Shown here one piece after another: positions 4,592 through 34,239 of a DNA stretch of 64,000 nucleotides (position 1 is the first letter of the stretch; the number at the start of each line of letters is the position of its first letter). Made by a program: the position numbers and the translations under genes. This stretch comes from Firmicutes bacterium HGW-Firmicutes-15 (GTDB lineage: Bacteria > Bacillota > Syntrophomonadia > Syntrophomonadales > Syntrophomonadaceae). Under the pieces are notes generated by a model. That model did no database searches. It saw nothing but the letters and a program-made list of their open reading frames with translations, and was not told the origin of the DNA. The stretch is from NCBI GenBank assembly GCA_002840245.1, contig PHAA01000005.1, positions 1 to 64,000 of the forward strand. Reading direction: 5' to 3'.

Positions 4592-5509
4592 TTGATTATT
4601 AACATTCATAAACATAGGTTCGCATTTGCCTTGTTGTCGATAGTGTTCTTTCTTGTCTCTGGATTGCTTATATATAAATATAATACTGGTAAAACCGGGA
4701 ATACCCCGCAGTCGGATAATGTGACATTGGTTGGAGCTTTTTTGAATTGGGATGAAGTGAAGGGCGATTTTCCTAAGAATGCTGAAGCTACTGTCATTGA
4801 CGTTGATTCCCAGCTATCTTTCCGGGTTCAGAGGAGGGGCGGCTATAATCATGTGGATGTACAGCCATTGACGTCAGCTGATAGTGCCACTATGAAGAAA
4901 ATATATAATGGCAACTGGACCTGGAAAAGGAAGGCGGTCGTGATTAAACTGGATAACGGACAAATGATTGCTGCTTCTATGAACGGAATGCCCCATGGTC
5001 AGGGTGCCATAAGCGGTAATGATTTTAACGGCCATTTCTGTATTCATTTCAAGAATAGTAAAACCCACGGCAGTAAAAAAGTAGACATGGCTCATCAGTT
5101 AATGATATGGAAAGCTGCCAACGTACTAGATCAACAATTAGCTTTGTTAAATCCGCAAGAAATAGTTGGGGTTTTTATTACCGCAATTGACCAAAAAGAT
5201 ATGAAAATAGCAGCAAAATTAATTGATTCCACAGATAACATTGAACCCTTGTTAAGAAGCCTGGAAACAATAGATAATATTAAGGCTGACAAAATTAATA
5301 AGGTCGAAGGCAATAGATTTAGGGTGGATTTACGATTAGTCTTCAATAATTCTAAGAATGAGATCCGAAAAAACATAGTCATTAATACGATAGAAAAGGA
5401 AGAATATTGGAAAATTGAAGCACAATCATTAACTGATTTGCTAGATCAAAATGTCCTAACTGAATTACAGCCGACCAGTGTTGTGACAATGGAAGAAGAT
5501 TGGGACTAA
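4592..5509 (+). CDS. Membrane-anchored exported protein of unknown function
   Basis: 305 residues with an N-terminal membrane anchor (about residues 10-30, FALLSIVFFLVSGLLIYK) and an extracytoplasmic remainder. A central block with NGMPHGQGAI, NDFNGHFCIHF and SKTHGS recalls a conserved domain of exported Firmicutes proteins that I cannot name. The C-terminal ~120 residues look like an NTF2-like or DUF4878-type fold (alternating charged helix and strands), but this is only an impression. The start is a TTG preceded by GGGAGGG. It faces the convergent lipoprotein gene at 6702-5539, ending 30 bases from its stop. Confidence 0.7.
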   Translation: MIINIHKHRFAFALLSIVFFLVSGLLIYKYNTGKTGNTPQSDNVTLVGAFLNWDEVKGDFPKNAEATVIDVDSQLSFRVQRRGGYNHVDVQPLTSADSATMKKIYNGNWTWKRKAVVIKLDNGQMIAASMNGMPHGQGAISGNDFNGHFCIHFKNSKTHGSKKVDMAHQLMIWKAANVLDQQLALLNPQEIVGVFITAIDQKDMKIAAKLIDSTDNIEPLLRSLETIDNIKADKINKVEGNRFRVDLRLVFNNSKNEIRKNIVINTIEKEEYWKIEAQSLTDLLDQNVLTELQPTSVVTMEEDWD

Positions 5510-27288: not shown

Positions 27289-27667
27289 AGAACGAACTGA
27301 GATTTCGGCTATGCTTCTGGCGAGCCGATTTTTCGTGATATTAGCCTGGAAATTAGAGCTGGAGAGAAGGTATGCCTACTGGGGGCAAATGGCTCGGGAA
27401 AATCCACTCTTTTAAAAATGTTGTGCGCCTTAATTTTTCCCGTGCAGGGTCGTTTCGAAGTATATATGCAGGAAATTACTGAGGATCGGATGGAGGATGA
27501 CCAAGTTGTCGATCCCTGGTTCTTTCGGAGTCCCATGAACTGATCTGTGACGGTTCTACCAGGGACATTCTAGAAAACCGGAAATTATTGATGCCGTTAA
27601 TCTTATCGACGAATACTGCCATGTCCATGGCGAGAGTGAGTATATACATCGTTATACCCATGGATAA
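27278..27667 (+). pseudogene. Decayed second ECF ATPase gene
   Basis: An ATG at 27278 overlaps the end of cbiO. After a small frame break the sequence reads GYASGEPIFRDISLEIRAGE and Walker A LLGANGSGKSTLLKMLCAL, then VQGRFEVYMQEITEDRM. Everything from the Q-loop through Walker B is missing. The sequence resumes with ESHELICDGSTRDILENRKLL and, after a 1-nt loss, DAVNLIDEYCHVHGESEYIH to a stop at 27665-27667. Only ~390 bases of a ~800-base gene remain, with at least two frame breaks. Confidence 0.85.
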
Positions 27668-27792
27668 ATATTCACACAAGAGAAAGGAAACAATCTATGG
27701 AATATAAAGGAAAATAGTTCGTTTTATAGTATAATTGTTTTCGTATGGCAGAGATTCTTGTCTGACTATTCCGGAGATTAAGGAGTTTAGAC

Positions 27793-29196
27793 TTGATATA
27801 TAAGCAACAGCAAGAACAAACTACTCAGAGAAATTATATTTTTTACGAGTTCACCAACAGCCTTTGCCCGCTTTGCTTGCAGAGAGTTCCTGCCAAGGTA
27901 ATCTTGCAGGACCAACAGGTCTATCTGTTAAAATACTGCCCGGTTCACGGAGAGCAATGCGAAATCCTGGAAGAGAGCGTGGATTACCATCTTAGAAAGA
28001 GACAGTATGATAAGCCCGGGACGGTTGCGAAGATCCATACCCGGGTAGAAAAGGGATGCCCTTTTGATTGTGGCACCTGCCCGCAGCATAATCAGCATGC
28101 CTGTATTGGTTTGATTGAGATTACCAATAAGTGCAATTTGCACTGTCCGCTGTGTTACGCGGATGCCGGCGAAGGTAGTTTTCTTCCCATAGAAACCATT
28201 AGCAAAATGATGGATTTTTTTCAGGAATCAGAAGACGGGCAGGCTGAAATCTTGCAGATCAGTGGCGGAGAGCCCACCTTGCATCCGGAGATAGAAAATA
28301 TAATACGTCTGGCTAAATCCAAACTATTCAAGTATGTGATGCTCAATACCAATGGAATACGAATGGCTGAGGATGAAGGTTTTGTGAAAAGTTTACAGCA
28401 ATTCGCAGGGGGCTTTGAGGTCTATCTCCAGTTTGACGGGTTTAAGGAATCTACCTATCTCAAGCTGCGGGGCCAGAACCTCTTGGAAAAGAAGCTTAAG
28501 GCCATAGATAATCTTTCTCGTTACAAAATTCCTACTACCCTGGTATCAACCATTTCCAAAGGAATTAATGACTCCGAACTGGGCCAACTCTTTGCCTTTG
28601 CCTTAAAGCAGCCCTATGTCAGGGGGATAAACTTTCAACCCACCGCTTTTTTTGGGAGAAGCAATCAAGATAGTAAGGAGCATCGGATTACCCTGTCCGG
28701 AATTCTGCAAGGATTATCAGCCCAAAGCAGCGGGATGTTGAAAATTGATGATTTTGTCCCTTTGCCCTGCAATGTGGAACGGATTGCGATAACCTATCTA
28801 TACCGAACATCCCAAGGCGGCTTTATACCTATCACCAGAGACGCCAGAATACCAGACTATCTGCACTTAATCAATAACACCTTTGCTTTCACCATTGAAG
28901 ACGCCTTGAAAAATGCAGGCAAGAGCATAAACGATATAAAAGCTGGCCTTGATTGCTGCAGATTTTTATATGATTTCCGCCATATAGTTCCCTGGAACTT
29001 TTTCATGAAGAGCCGAGAACAAAAGATGGAGTACATCGACCAGAATACATTTCGCATCAGTGTCAGTTCTTTCTTGGATGCCTATAATTTTGATGTGAAA
29101 TCCATGCAAAAAGAATGTGTTCACGTTATTACTCCCGATCTGAGAAAGATCCCTTTTTCAGCCTACAACATTATACATCGAGGTGGAACCATATGA
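27793..29196 (+). CDS. Radical SAM enzyme of the tetraether-synthase (Tes/MJ0619)-like family
   Basis: 467 residues. The N-terminus has a rubredoxin/zinc-ribbon-like block (CPLCLQRV, YCPVHG, CPFDCGTCPQH) followed by the radical SAM core with cluster motif CNLHCPLC (~residues 115-122), SGGEPTLHPE and LNTNG. The C-terminal ~150 residues include further cysteines (LPCNVER, LDCCRFLY) that could hold auxiliary clusters. This arrangement matches MJ0619/Tes and related bacterial enzymes that join lipid tails by C-C bond formation. TTG start with AAGGAG upstream. The downstream genes overlap by 4-8 bases or lie close, forming a five-gene membrane-lipid-looking operon. The substrate is inferred, not shown. 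Confidence 0.85.
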   Translation: MIYKQQQEQTTQRNYIFYEFTNSLCPLCLQRVPAKVILQDQQVYLLKYCPVHGEQCEILEESVDYHLRKRQYDKPGTVAKIHTRVEKGCPFDCGTCPQHNQHACIGLIEITNKCNLHCPLCYADAGEGSFLPIETISKMMDFFQESEDGQAEILQISGGEPTLHPEIENIIRLAKSKLFKYVMLNTNGIRMAEDEGFVKSLQQFAGGFEVYLQFDGFKESTYLKLRGQNLLEKKLKAIDNLSRYKIPTTLVSTISKGINDSELGQLFAFALKQPYVRGINFQPTAFFGRSNQDSKEHRITLSGILQGLSAQSSGMLKIDDFVPLPCNVERIAITYLYRTSQGGFIPITRDARIPDYLHLINNTFAFTIEDALKNAGKSINDIKAGLDCCRFLYDFRHIVPWNFFMKSREQKMEYIDQNTFRISVSSFLDAYNFDVKSMQKECVHVITPDLRKIPFSAYNIIHRGGTI

Positions 29197-29819
29197 GTGC
29201 GTTTCTGGAACAAGATTGGTTTTATATTGGCATTGAAAGTATCATCTGTTTATGTGTGTTTCTCTTGTTCGTCTCTATAATCATTGATTTCAGCTTATAT
29301 TCTCGAGAAGAAGATGTACAAGCAGAAAAGAAATCCATTGTGGCAACGGGCAGCATGACTATGTTTTTCCTTTTATTCTATCTCCTATTGCGAAGCGGCA
29401 TATGGGTATGGCGGATATCTCCTGGCAGCGTCCAAGAGATATTGATATTACTGGGGACAACGATGATTGTGGCAGGTTGTTTTATGAATATAAGCGGAAG
29501 ATTCCACCTGGGGAAAAACTGGGCTAATCAGATAAAAATCTATGAAAAGCACAGTCTGATACAGACCGGCATGTATAGATGGGTTCGACATCCTTTATAT
29601 GCCTCCATTATCCTCATGTTTTTTGGGGCTTGCCTCGTATTCAGAAATATCGCTGCCCTCCTGGCAGTCACCGTGGTATTCGTCCCTTTTATGTATTACC
29701 GGGCGTTGCAGGAGGAAAGGCTTTTAATGCAAAGGTTTTCCCAGTATGAGGAATACCGGCGAAAGACCGGGATGTTCTTTCCCCTAATGCTTAAAAAGGA
29801 GGTGGTTTCTGATGATTGA
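29193..29819 (+). CDS. Isoprenylcysteine carboxyl methyltransferase-like membrane protein
   Basis: 208 residues from ATG 29193, overlapping the radical SAM stop (ATGA), with GAGGTGG upstream. Four to five membrane helices. The C-terminal half has the ICMT/PEMT pattern: LIQTGMYRWVRHPLYASIIL (~120-140), and EERLLMQRFSQYEEYRRKTG with the conserved E-E-x-L and Y motifs that bind S-adenosylmethionine. Members methylate lipids or protein cysteine carboxylates. In this operon a lipid substrate or product of the radical SAM enzyme is a reasonable guess. Confidence 0.82.
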   Translation: MSAFLEQDWFYIGIESIICLCVFLLFVSIIIDFSLYSREEDVQAEKKSIVATGSMTMFFLLFYLLLRSGIWVWRISPGSVQEILILLGTTMIVAGCFMNISGRFHLGKNWANQIKIYEKHSLIQTGMYRWVRHPLYASIILMFFGACLVFRNIAALLAVTVVFVPFMYYRALQEERLLMQRFSQYEEYRRKTGMFFPLMLKKEVVSDD

Positions 29820-30279
29820 GTTGCGCCCTGTGGAAATACCCAATGCTGCCTTTAATTTTTGCAAATATATTATTTCTTTATTATTATGGGTATCTTTAAT
29901 CATCCACAGCAAAATCCTGGTATGGATTTGTTTCGCCATCCTGGTATTATCGGCCTTGCTGAAAGTAAAGCGTGCCCCTCTGGTCTGGTTCTATACCCAG
30001 ACATTAAATCGTCTCTTTCCCTCGCCAGCAATTATCCTGGATGAAAATGCGGTGAGGTTTACCCATATTGTAGGTGCAGTGATTGCAGTCGATGCGCTGG
30101 TGTTCATATATATTTTCAATCCCCTTATCGGCTGGGTAACTATAGGGGTACTGGCAGTGTTGAAAACTTCCGGGGCCTTCGGGCTTTGTGGCGCTATGAA
30201 GTTGTATGGCTGTCTCAATGATCCCAACGGACAATGCTGCCGGGTGGGTAAAGGAATTAAAAAATGTCAACGTAGTTAA
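29812..30279 (+). CDS. DUF4395 membrane protein
   Basis: 155 residues with about four helices (FCKYIISLLLWVSLII, WICFAILVLSALL, HIVGAVIAVDALVFIYIF, GWVTIGVLAVLKTSGAFGLC) and a cysteine-containing tail, NDPNGQCCRVGKGIKKC. It matches DUF4395, a family of unknown function often found beside thioredoxin-like or lipid genes. It starts eight bases before the end of the methyltransferase gene, with AAGGAGG upstream. Confidence 0.78.
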   Translation: MIELRPVEIPNAAFNFCKYIISLLLWVSLIIHSKILVWICFAILVLSALLKVKRAPLVWFYTQTLNRLFPSPAIILDENAVRFTHIVGAVIAVDALVFIYIFNPLIGWVTIGVLAVLKTSGAFGLCGAMKLYGCLNDPNGQCCRVGKGIKKCQRS

Positions 30280-30302
30280 CCATCTGAAAGGGGAAGAGAA
30301 CA

Positions 30303-31061
30303 ATTAACACCGACTGGGGCTTAAAGCCAGTACTCTTTTACCTCCATGGCTTTCCGGTAGAGGCATATCCGGTTTTTGTTTTGCTGGCTTTGCTGAGCGG
30401 TATTTTCGTTTATCTCATTGAATTGCGAAGAGACCGAATAGAGAGTGCAAATGCCTTTTATATTGCTATGTTTGCCATCGTGGGAGGCATCATTGGCTCC
30501 AAGCTTCCCATCATTCTAATCTATTGGCGGGAACTGAATTCCTCCCCCAATCCTTTAGATGTGTTATTATCAGGCCGGACCATTGTGGGGGGACTTATTG
30601 GTGGTGCACTGGGAACCTTTTTAGCCAAGAAATTCTTCCATATAAAAGAGCGTCTGGGAAATCAGATTGCCATTCCGGTAGCCGTCGGAATGGCTGTAGG
30701 AAGGGTAGGCTGTCTCTTAAGAGGTTGCTGCTATGGTCAGGCTACCTCACTACCCTGGGGTATTGACTTGGGAGATCACATAGCTAGACATCCCACCCAG
30801 CTTTACGAAATGTTTTTTGATATATTATTGGCGTTTTATCTGGCCTGGAGAAAGAAACAGGGGGTGGAACCGGGTGAACTATTCAAGATATTTCTTAACG
30901 GTTATTTAAGTTTTCGTTTTTTATTGGAATTTATCCGAGATGAGAGAATAGCTTTTATAGGATTAACTAATTTTCAAGTGCTTTGTGTGATCAGTTTAGT
31001 CTATATTAATCGCAATCTGGGTTCTATGTTATTCAACAGAAAGAAGGTGCAAAAGGCATGA
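30303..31061 (+). CDS. Prolipoprotein diacylglyceryl transferase-like protein, apparent AUU start
   Basis: 252 residues if begun at ATT 30303. From there the frame reads INTDWGLKPVLFYLHGFPVEAYPVFVLLALL without interruption, matching the N-terminal strand and first helix of Lgt. AAAGGGGAAGAG ends a few bases before it, and an in-frame stop lies at 30285. The first ordinary start, TTG 30381, would cut off that conserved part and has no ribosome site. The core motif reads GRVGCLLRGCCYG where true Lgt has GRxGNFxNGExYG, so the functional Asn is Cys here. HPTQLYE and RFLLEFIRDE are kept. It is probably an Lgt paralogue with another acceptor or donor, linked to the radical SAM enzyme. Confidence 0.78.
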   Translation: MNTDWGLKPVLFYLHGFPVEAYPVFVLLALLSGIFVYLIELRRDRIESANAFYIAMFAIVGGIIGSKLPIILIYWRELNSSPNPLDVLLSGRTIVGGLIGGALGTFLAKKFFHIKERLGNQIAIPVAVGMAVGRVGCLLRGCCYGQATSLPWGIDLGDHIARHPTQLYEMFFDILLAFYLAWRKKQGVEPGELFKIFLNGYLSFRFLLEFIRDERIAFIGLTNFQVLCVISLVYINRNLGSMLFNRKKVQKA

Positions 31062-31387
31062 ATGATTTGTCACCTAATGGAGATGATTCAAGCGGCAATA
31101 ATAACAGCCCTCCCAACCATAATAAAACCCCAGATACCGGGACGGAAATATTATTGGGCATGGGTCTGGCGGCGATATGCTACACACTATGTATAAGGAT
31201 ATCATATACCAGCCTATCCAATACGATGCAAGGATTGGCGGTCTTAGCTATTTTGTTAGTCGTAGCCATAGGCAATGTCAAGCTATTTAAATCCCAACAT
31301 CGTACCGCAGCCATTGCTCTGCTAATAGCCACGTCCCCTCTTTATCTGGGCGCATTGCTTTTGGGAACATGTTCCGTACTATTCTAA
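31058..31387 (+). CDS. Small membrane protein of unknown function
   Basis: 109 residues. The first ~30 are polar and Asn/Pro-rich (NDLSPNGDDSSGNNNSPPNH); then three helices follow: ILLGMGLAAICYTLCIRI, GLAVLAILLVVAIGNVKL and AIALLIATSPLYLGALLL. Its ATG overlaps the Lgt-like stop by four bases, so it is coupled to that operon. I recognise no family. Confidence 0.7.
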   Translation: MNDLSPNGDDSSGNNNSPPNHNKTPDTGTEILLGMGLAAICYTLCIRISYTSLSNTMQGLAVLAILLVVAIGNVKLFKSQHRTAAIALLIATSPLYLGALLLGTCSVLF

Positions 31388-33229: not shown

Positions 33230-33580
33230 GTGCATGAGTTGTCCATAGTAGAAGGGGTCATGAACATGGTCAGAGAAAGTGCTCTGCAAAGCAATATAAA
33301 GAAAGTAAACAAACTCAAGCTGGTGATTGGCAGGCTTTCGATGGTTCTTCCTGACAGTATGCAGTTTTGCTTTCAGGCTTTAAGCCAGGACGAATTTTTT
33401 CGGGATGCTGTTCTAGAAATTGAGCAAAGGGAAATTCTAATCCGATGTAAAAAATGCGAGCAGCAGTCTGTTTTGGAAGATATTTATTGTTATATTTGCC
33501 CGGGATGCGGGGCTAACGAGGTGGAAATAATTCAAGGGCGTGAATTGTACCTTGATTATTATGAAGGAGAAGAAAACTGA
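33230..33580 (+). CDS. hypA: Hydrogenase nickel incorporation protein HypA
   Basis: 116 residues beginning MHELSIVEGV, where His2 is the nickel ligand. The zinc ribbon is CKKCEQ and CPGCGAN. It delivers nickel with HypB to the [NiFe] active site. GTG start with GAGGT upstream. Its stop overlaps the hypB start. It heads the plus-strand hyp-hydrogenase operon and is preceded by the partial riboswitch copy E. Confidence 0.93.
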   Translation: MHELSIVEGVMNMVRESALQSNIKKVNKLKLVIGRLSMVLPDSMQFCFQALSQDEFFRDAVLEIEQREILIRCKKCEQQSVLEDIYCYICPGCGANEVEIIQGRELYLDYYEGEEN

Positions 33581-34239
33581 TGGTGCAGGTTAAAATGGAA
33601 AGCAATCTATTAGGAGCAAATGAACTTTTGGCGAGAAAAAATCGCAGCTTGTTTGCCGGGCAGGGACTCTTGGTGGTAAACCTGATGAGTTCTCCGGGTT
33701 CTGGCAAGACTACCATCTTGGAACGAACCATTGATTCTCTCGATGGGCAGTTAAATATGGGAGTAATCGAGGGAGATCTCTATACAGATCAAGATGCGCA
33801 GCGTATTGAAAAAAAAGGTGTCCAGGTTATTCAAATTAACACTGAGGGAGCCTGTCACTTGGATGCGGGCATGGTGGGGAATGCTTTTGGGCAATTACCC
33901 TCGGGTGACATGGATATGATCTTTATAGAAAATGTTGGAAATCTGGTCTGCCCAGCAGAGTTCGACCTAGGAGAGGACTTTAGAGCTGTAGTAATAAGTA
34001 CCACGGAAGGTAATGACAAACCGCTTAAGTATCCTTTCATTTTTAGTCAGGCCGGAGTGATACTACTTAATAAAATTGATCTCCTACCTTACACTGATTT
34101 TAGTCTGGACAAGTTCAGCGATGATCTTGCCCGGCTTAATCCCTCTGCTCCGGTATTTATGGTCTCGGGACGAACCGGGGAGGGTATAAAAACCTGGACC
34201 GAATGGTTGCTGGGGGAGGTGAAGAGGAAAAAACCTTAA
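33580..34239 (+). CDS. hypB: Hydrogenase maturation GTPase HypB
   Basis: 219 residues with P-loop MSSPGSGKTT (~37-46), EGDLYTDQDA, and HLDAGM where metal-site Cys/His lie (GACHLDAG), and NKIDLL for guanine specificity. The His-rich N-terminal nickel store of some HypB proteins is absent. The separate CooT-DUF4198 protein with its His runs may fill that role. It works with HypA in nickel insertion. It overlaps hypA by one base. Confidence 0.93.
   Translation: MVQVKMESNLLGANELLARKNRSLFAGQGLLVVNLMSSPGSGKTTILERTIDSLDGQLNMGVIEGDLYTDQDAQRIEKKGVQVIQINTEGACHLDAGMVGNAFGQLPSGDMDMIFIENVGNLVCPAEFDLGEDFRAVVISTTEGNDKPLKYPFIFSQAGVILLNKIDLLPYTDFSLDKFSDDLARLNPSAPVFMVSGRTGEGIKTWTEWLLGEVKRKKP

Follow-up and report, generated by a model that had tools for sequence, protein, structure and literature searches.

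Linkage of a Tes-like radical SAM enzyme with an Lgt paralogue and a small membrane protein suggests an undescribed bacterial route of lipid attachment or modification

Introduction

What is a relative of the archaeal tetraether synthase (Tes) doing in a bacterial operon that also encodes a second copy of Lgt? The question is raised by a stretch of 64,000 nucleotides from Firmicutes bacterium HGW-Firmicutes-15, a member of the Syntrophomonadaceae (assembly GCA_002840245.1, contig PHAA01000005.1, positions 1 to 64,000); we refer to this whole stretch as the window. Positions 27,793 to 31,387 hold five genes, which open with a radical S-adenosylmethionine (rSAM) enzyme and close with an Lgt paralogue and a small membrane protein. 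Published work has listed hundreds of Tes homologues in bacteria, with no known role (PMC8941075), and such homologues have been proposed as makers of branched glycerol dialkyl glycerol tetraethers (brGDGTs) (PMC8941075, PMC10087280). Our analysis demonstrates that the five-gene cassette belongs as a subtype to an older system of three parts, namely the rSAM, the Lgt paralogue and the small membrane protein, which is present in at least four phyla. These three proteins are the core, and the ICMT-like methyltransferase and DUF4395 protein of the cassette are accessory to it. The association suggests an undescribed route for attaching or modifying membrane lipids in these phyla. An earlier interpretation of the letters of this DNA, referred to here as the sequence-only reading, had proposed an undescribed pathway, and we found no paper in the open literature that links Lgt to Tes, or DUF4395, Lgt and Tes together.

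Results

The tightly coupled operon described in the sequence-only reading is confirmed, with Pfam and NCBIfam assignments in agreement; all five genes lie on the + strand and overlap or nearly touch:

27780..27785, + strand: AAGGAG ribosome-binding site, read directly from the sequence, preceding the TTG start of the rSAM gene
27793..29196, + strand: Tes-like rSAM protein, 467 amino acids, TTG start (NCBIfam; 7TOL; fold of 7TOM)
29193..29819, + strand: ICMT/PEMT-type membrane methyltransferase, 208 amino acids (Pfam ICMT 1.9e-13, PEMT 1.8e-11)
29812..30279, + strand: DUF4395 membrane protein, 155 amino acids (Pfam 2.4e-13)
30303..31061, + strand: Lgt paralogue, 252 amino acids, start approximate, probably ATT (Pfam LGT 5e-38; fold of 5AZB; residue table; tree)
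31058..31387, + strand: small three-helix membrane protein, 109 amino acids, candidate acceptor (conserved partner; C-terminal Cys)

The rSAM stop and the ATG of the ICMT-like gene share the overlap ATGA, the ICMT-like gene overlaps DUF4395, and the Lgt stop overlaps the start of the small-protein gene. No ATG, GTG or TTG lies upstream of 30381 in the Lgt frame, and a start at 30381 would cut into helix 1; the ATT at 30303 is a probable rare start codon, near which the conserved N-terminus of the relatives begins. The sequence GGGGAAGAG lies upstream of this probable start.

The distribution of the cassette was surveyed in 84,980 species genomes with two peptide patterns only, and the result is thus a sample. 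The scan returned 11 loci with at least 50% rSAM identity, and the nine with sufficient sequence all carry the rSAM, ICMT, DUF4395 and Lgt genes in the same order, followed in every case by the small membrane protein. The Bacillota among them are four Clostridium strains (including C. bowmanii and C. lacusfryxellense), Syntrophomonas DTU019, a Bacillota metagenome-assembled genome (MAG) and an Erysipelotrichaceae MAG; the remainder are Mangrovibacterium marinum (Bacteroidota) and an Acidobacteria MAG (Acidobacteriota). Further genomes beyond these nine named loci share the order. Recurrence of this order in three phyla, at rSAM identities of 50-73%, shows that the operon is not a chance arrangement, and since the flanking genes differ the order is kept by selection; the conserved lipid-related operon anticipated from the sequence is borne out by this survey. 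The cassette is rare: the window's genome is the sole carrier among 398 sampled genomes of its phylum, and one of three among seven sampled members of its genus. The nine cassettes share an invariant RHPLY motif (R132, H133, P134, L135 and Y136) and C-terminal Glu pair (E174 and E175) in the ICMT-like protein, in agreement with the RHPxY and EE signature of the ICMT/PEMT enzymes, and four Cys residues invariant by alignment in DUF4395 (C17, C126, C134 and C142).

The phyla to which M. marinum, the Acidobacteria MAG and a Chloroflexi MAG belong were sampled at about 350-400 genomes each, which places the cassette in a wider setting. More distant rSAM relatives (37-42%) usually adjoin an Lgt paralogue even where ICMT and DUF4395 are missing. 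The paralogue lies within 1.5 kb of the rSAM gene in 24 of the 26 non-cassette Bacteroidota relatives and 16 of the 18 Acidobacteriota relatives, and Lgt-linked rSAMs are also found in two Bacillota loci (L093 and L095) and in some Chloroflexota. No Lgt is found at this distance in any of 25 TrsS-like loci or 23 Chloroflexota relatives of another group. On plasmid pPP1 of Persicobacter psychrovividus the Lgt paralogue, the rSAM and a 59-residue protein ending in GTGICGSLLS are contiguous, all of them overlapping. In an rSAM tree built by a quick method and containing some long branches, the Lgt-linked members, with the exception of locus L211, form one clade (support 96), in which the cassette rSAMs are grouped with support 100. 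The Lgt tree separates the linked copies (support 99) from the housekeeping copies (support 99) and repeats the rSAM subgroups, namely cassette, pair and Chloroflexota. The rSAM and the Lgt paralogue therefore co-evolve across at least four phyla.

Several loci stand out in this survey. The rSAM of L211 falls within an otherwise Lgt-free Chloroflexota group; the Lgt and small Cys protein found near it may reflect an independent link or a transfer. L093 (8770-14645) holds an early-branching Lgt-linked rSAM in an operon with an ArsP_1 permease, a Se_S_carrier protein and a fusion of a sulfur transporter (Sulf_transp) with ICMT. In L228 (7175-8074) an ArsP_1 permease directly follows the rSAM, in a Chloroflexota subgroup which also bears the Lgt paralogue. 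Several TrsS-like genes in L176, L181 and other Acidobacteriota matches contain one in-frame TGA, consistent with selenoproteins.

The rSAM of the window matches Pfam Radical_SAM (5e-21) and Zn_ribbon_HMPTM (2e-16), and a sequence search of the PDB returns archaeal Tes (7TOL) at E=4e-79, with the next entry at 1e-9. Its AlphaFold model (pLDDT 80, pTM 0.83) superposes over the full length on 7TOM and 7TOL with TM-scores of 0.82-0.83, the others among the matches listed reaching at most 0.37 (scaled to query length). As modelled, the protein has the complete archaeal Tes fold, and the Tes-like assignment made from the sequence is upheld. The NCBIfam models place it below the cut-off of both candidate families: the best score is that of TrsS (NF045646, 368 bits, 6e-110, cut-off 490 bits), and Tes follows (NF045702, 313 bits, 3e-93, cut-off 450 bits). 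TrsS proteins form another clade (support 100) with no Lgt nearby, their neighbours being a C_GCAxxG_C_C protein, an AMP ligase and a methyltransferase.

Alignment with the Tes enzyme MJ0619 (GDGT-MAS; 7TOL/7TOM), a comparison proposed in the sequence-only reading, gives 31% identity and shows that three of the four Tes metal sites are kept: the rubredoxin site (C25/C28/C49/H52; CxxC-x20-CxxH), the [Fe4S4]N ligands (C89/C93/C96/H99; C-C-C-H) and the radical SAM cluster (C114/C118/C121) within the CNLxCPxC core. The DAYNFD C-terminal region is likewise shared. Where the window's enzyme departs from Tes, apart from its tie to Lgt and the small membrane protein, is in the remodelled ligands of the C-terminal site. 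The Cys of HCG is absent, PFC has become PFS456, Met439 and Tyr459 are replaced by S425 and V445, and C326, C388 and C442 are present. A residue table by group highlights how regular this remodelling is. PFC is PFS in all 12 cassette rSAMs and PF(E/D) in 39 of the 42 other Lgt-linked rSAMs, and it is retained in archaeal relatives and in Lgt-free Chloroflexota relatives; Met439 is Ser or Thr in the cassette and still Met in 32 of those 42. The cassette enzymes further show Tyr459 changed to Val or Ile and RCC to EC. C326 is a newly conserved Cys of the Lgt-linked rSAMs, and C388 is an additional one in the cassette.

In Tes, the first substrate radical is held at the C-terminal cluster as a C-S bond, giving a thiolated lipid intermediate, and activity in vitro survives mutation of Met439 and of Tyr459, two residues strictly conserved among archaeal Tes (PMC9433317). 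Because the cluster ligands have changed, yet Tes mutants at Met439 and Tyr459 stay active, we read the C-terminal site from the alignment as ligand-exchanged and not as proven lost. The enzyme is predicted to be cytoplasmic, with no evident membrane or export segment. A selenocysteine in the rSAM of C. lacusfryxellense (L023) was considered and rejected, as the in-frame stop is TAA and not TGA; this codon (5187-5189) falls within the [Fe4S4]N motif and marks either a decayed copy or a sequencing error.

The Lgt paralogue scores 86 bits against TIGR00544, below the cut-off of 118.9 bits, and its model matches E. coli Lgt (5AZB) with E 1.4e-7 and TM 0.63. In E. coli Lgt, Arg143 and Arg239 bind and activate phosphatidylglycerol, and the essential His103 of the HGGL motif is placed at the peptide-binding motif (PMC4728403). 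The window's protein keeps the equivalents of Arg143, Glu202, Tyr235, Arg239, Glu243 and Arg246, along with the GRxG motif, and has Val in place of His103. Across 47 paralogues Arg143 is kept in 47 and Arg239 in 46, and Glu202 and Tyr235 are kept as well (one fragment has a gap); residue alignment thus shows that the putative phosphatidylglycerol site is retained. Asn146 is Cys in 44 of the 47, and in the cassette Glu151 is Cys too. His103 is found in none of the 47 and in six of 12 housekeeping copies. Loss of His103 had looked like proof of a dead or special Lgt, a case weakened by the housekeeping Lgt of the window's own genome and others, which also lack it; since this residue varies among housekeeping copies, we treat its loss as supporting evidence only. 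The housekeeping gene at C39:73873 establishes the operon copy as a true second copy, and each of the nine cassette genomes reached through the named loci has at least two Lgt matches (one match of the Acidobacteria MAG is partial). The altered Lgt paralogue of the sequence-only reading is therefore a second copy beside a normal Lgt, in a clade of its own.

The third component is a protein of 57-150 amino acids with two or three helices, which matched no Pfam or NCBIfam family. When one rule is applied to all loci, a small hydrophobic open reading frame adjoins 44 of 57 Lgt-linked loci compared with 2 of 76 control loci. A Cys lies within the last 16 residues in 40 of 43 proteins and in 14 of 17 BLAST clusters, and Cys residues are 3.6-fold denser in this segment than elsewhere in the protein (p=2e-4, one protein per cluster). 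This within-protein density and the control loci replace a background of random small hydrophobic open reading frames, which was discarded as mostly spurious frames. In the window the residue is Cys105 (codon 31370-31372), in the sequence LLLGTCSVLF, past a K/R-rich loop and the last helix. Net charge is +2.5 before the Cys helix and 0 after the Cys, with 42 of 45 proteins in the same direction, and the median distance from the last K/R to the Cys is 19 residues. Two outliers have the Cys at the end of the first helix, likewise after K/R residues and a hydrophobic stretch. The proteins are often duplicated, with tandem copies in about 10 loci, as would fit substrates.

The Cys is thus predicted to close, on the outer side, a helix preceded by a K/R-rich loop; this is how a lipoprotein signal peptide is arranged, though the small proteins usually have it at the C-terminus. 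As in a lipobox, a K/R-rich segment, a hydrophobic helix of about 16-23 residues and one or more small residues precede a Cys at the predicted outer face. The small proteins differ from lipoproteins in that the last helix usually carries the Cys, 4-15 residues short of the C-terminus, and in its surroundings, mainly G-x-C as opposed to L-A/S-G-C; they do not follow the [LVI][AST][GA]C pattern of an N-terminal signal peptide. CaaX-type prenylation, hinted at by the ICMT-like gene and the ending CSVLF, was rejected, as 4 to 14 residues follow the Cys in the cassettes.

The operon of the window is flanked by genes for nickel and hydrogenase functions. An intact CbiQ (25703) and ATPase (26521) are followed, immediately before the operon, by a remnant second CbiO-type ATPase (27289-27700), which is short and broken in frame, with a readable Walker A motif (GANGSGKST). 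Downstream, after a gap of about 1.8 kb, lie hypA and hypB (33230-34239), which are unlinked to the cassette in other genomes. CbiQ, HypA and HypB were rejected as parts of the system, given that the flanks differ in every other cassette.

Discussion

Our genomic data establish the coupling of the three genes; both reactions and their order we infer. The most economical account of all the parts, and the model we favour with somewhat less than even confidence, is that lipid tails are modified by the rSAM and that the Cys of the small protein receives a diacylglyceryl group through the Lgt paralogue. On the cytoplasmic side, a 5'-deoxyadenosyl radical generated by the rSAM would activate the tail of a glycerophospholipid, and a new tail bond would form, either a C-S bond or, as in Tes, a C-C bond between two tails. 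The Lgt paralogue would act at the outer face, where the thiol of the small-protein Cys would receive a diacylglyceryl group, possibly one taken from the modified lipid. In the cassette subtype, the ICMT-like methyltransferase and DUF4395 may finish or assist the modification. A more ambitious form of the model, in which a lipobox-like site on the C-terminal helix is diacylglycerylated by the dedicated Lgt paralogue with an rSAM-altered and possibly membrane-spanning lipid, would constitute a new protein lipidation; we consider it doubtful.

Several observations weigh against the favoured model. Its main weakness is that the rSAM and the small-protein Cys are predicted on opposite sides of the membrane; with the enzyme cytoplasmic and the Cys outside, the two steps would need a lipid that flips or is delivered. 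The topology of the small protein is itself read from charge bias alone, its Cys motif, mostly G-x-C, departs from the standard lipobox, and the C-terminal Cys is missing from three of 17 clusters. Some members of the rSAM clade (L128, L141 and L174) show no Lgt within 1.5 kb. Finally, the ligands of the coupling cluster are altered, and tail coupling may therefore be lost; that the enzyme joins tails as Tes does is uncertain. The sequence-only reading had suggested a pathway perhaps making or using tail-linked lipids; its Tes-like assignment stands, and the coupling step is in doubt.

We considered three rivals. In the first, which is close to the sequence-only reading, the rSAM might join the tails of phosphatidylglycerol-type lipids into membrane-spanning ones, with the Lgt paralogue, ICMT and small protein preparing or accepting headgroups or organising the lipids. 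The whole Tes fold, the three intact metal sites, the dispensability of Tes Met439 and Tyr459 in vitro (PMC9433317) and the proposed role of bacterial homologues in brGDGT synthesis (PMC8941075) all speak for it, but the changed ligands are those of the cluster that holds the radical intermediate, and the conserved small-protein Cys would be left unexplained. The distribution also fits poorly, as psychrophilic Clostridium carry the cassette and the gene pair is frequent among Bacteroidota, in which we know of no diabolic lipids. We therefore regard this explanation as unlikely. Tes itself passes through a thiolated lipid (PMC9433317), and the rSAM could instead make a C-S or C-Se bond on the lipid tail as part of sulfur, selenium or arsenic lipid chemistry. 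Such a role would be in keeping with TrsS as the best NCBIfam match and with the partners at two early-branching loci (ArsP_1, Se_S_carrier and Sulf_transp-ICMT at L093, ArsP_1 at the Chloroflexota locus L228), but neither the cassette nor most Lgt-rSAM pairs have these partners, and the rSAM gene of the window is without selenocysteine, which makes this chemistry improbable.

The remaining rival turns on the small gene, which adjoins the rSAM, occurs in tandem copies and encodes one conserved Cys, as might be expected if the enzyme were a maturase of the kind that acts on ribosomally synthesised and post-translationally modified peptides. It would install a thioether or a tail-to-Cys cross-link on the small protein, with the Lgt paralogue supplying or anchoring the lipid. 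Against this, the net charge puts the Cys outside, the rSAM has no evident membrane or export segment, and its fold is that of Tes and not of a SPASM maturase; we judge such a maturase highly improbable.

The sequence-only reading also pointed to Thermotoga maritima Mss, the bacterial membrane-spanning lipid synthase, which catalyses the same kind of reaction and whose architecture is said to resemble that of Tes (PMC13274423). Published screens query Mss and Tes as separate enzymes, and Cloacimonadota have Mss matches and no Tes matches (PMC11868695). The distinction between the two is drawn here from later papers only. Because Mss was screened as a different enzyme (PMC11868695), we restrict the comparison to function, and a link of the operon to Mss is unsupported.

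Bacterial Tes homologues are known; what is new is their tie to an Lgt paralogue, and the system as a whole stands a real chance of being a new kind of protein lipidation. The data define a large and well-delineated clade of bacterial Tes homologues that is coupled to an Lgt paralogue and a small membrane protein, and highlight a need for caution in that bacterial Tes matches should not all be counted as makers of tetraethers, such as the brGDGTs used as climate-proxy lipids. The three-gene unit is now testable. If the acceptor model is true, lipoprotein-type lipidation would extend beyond N-terminal signal peptides and beyond ordinary diacylglyceryl groups.

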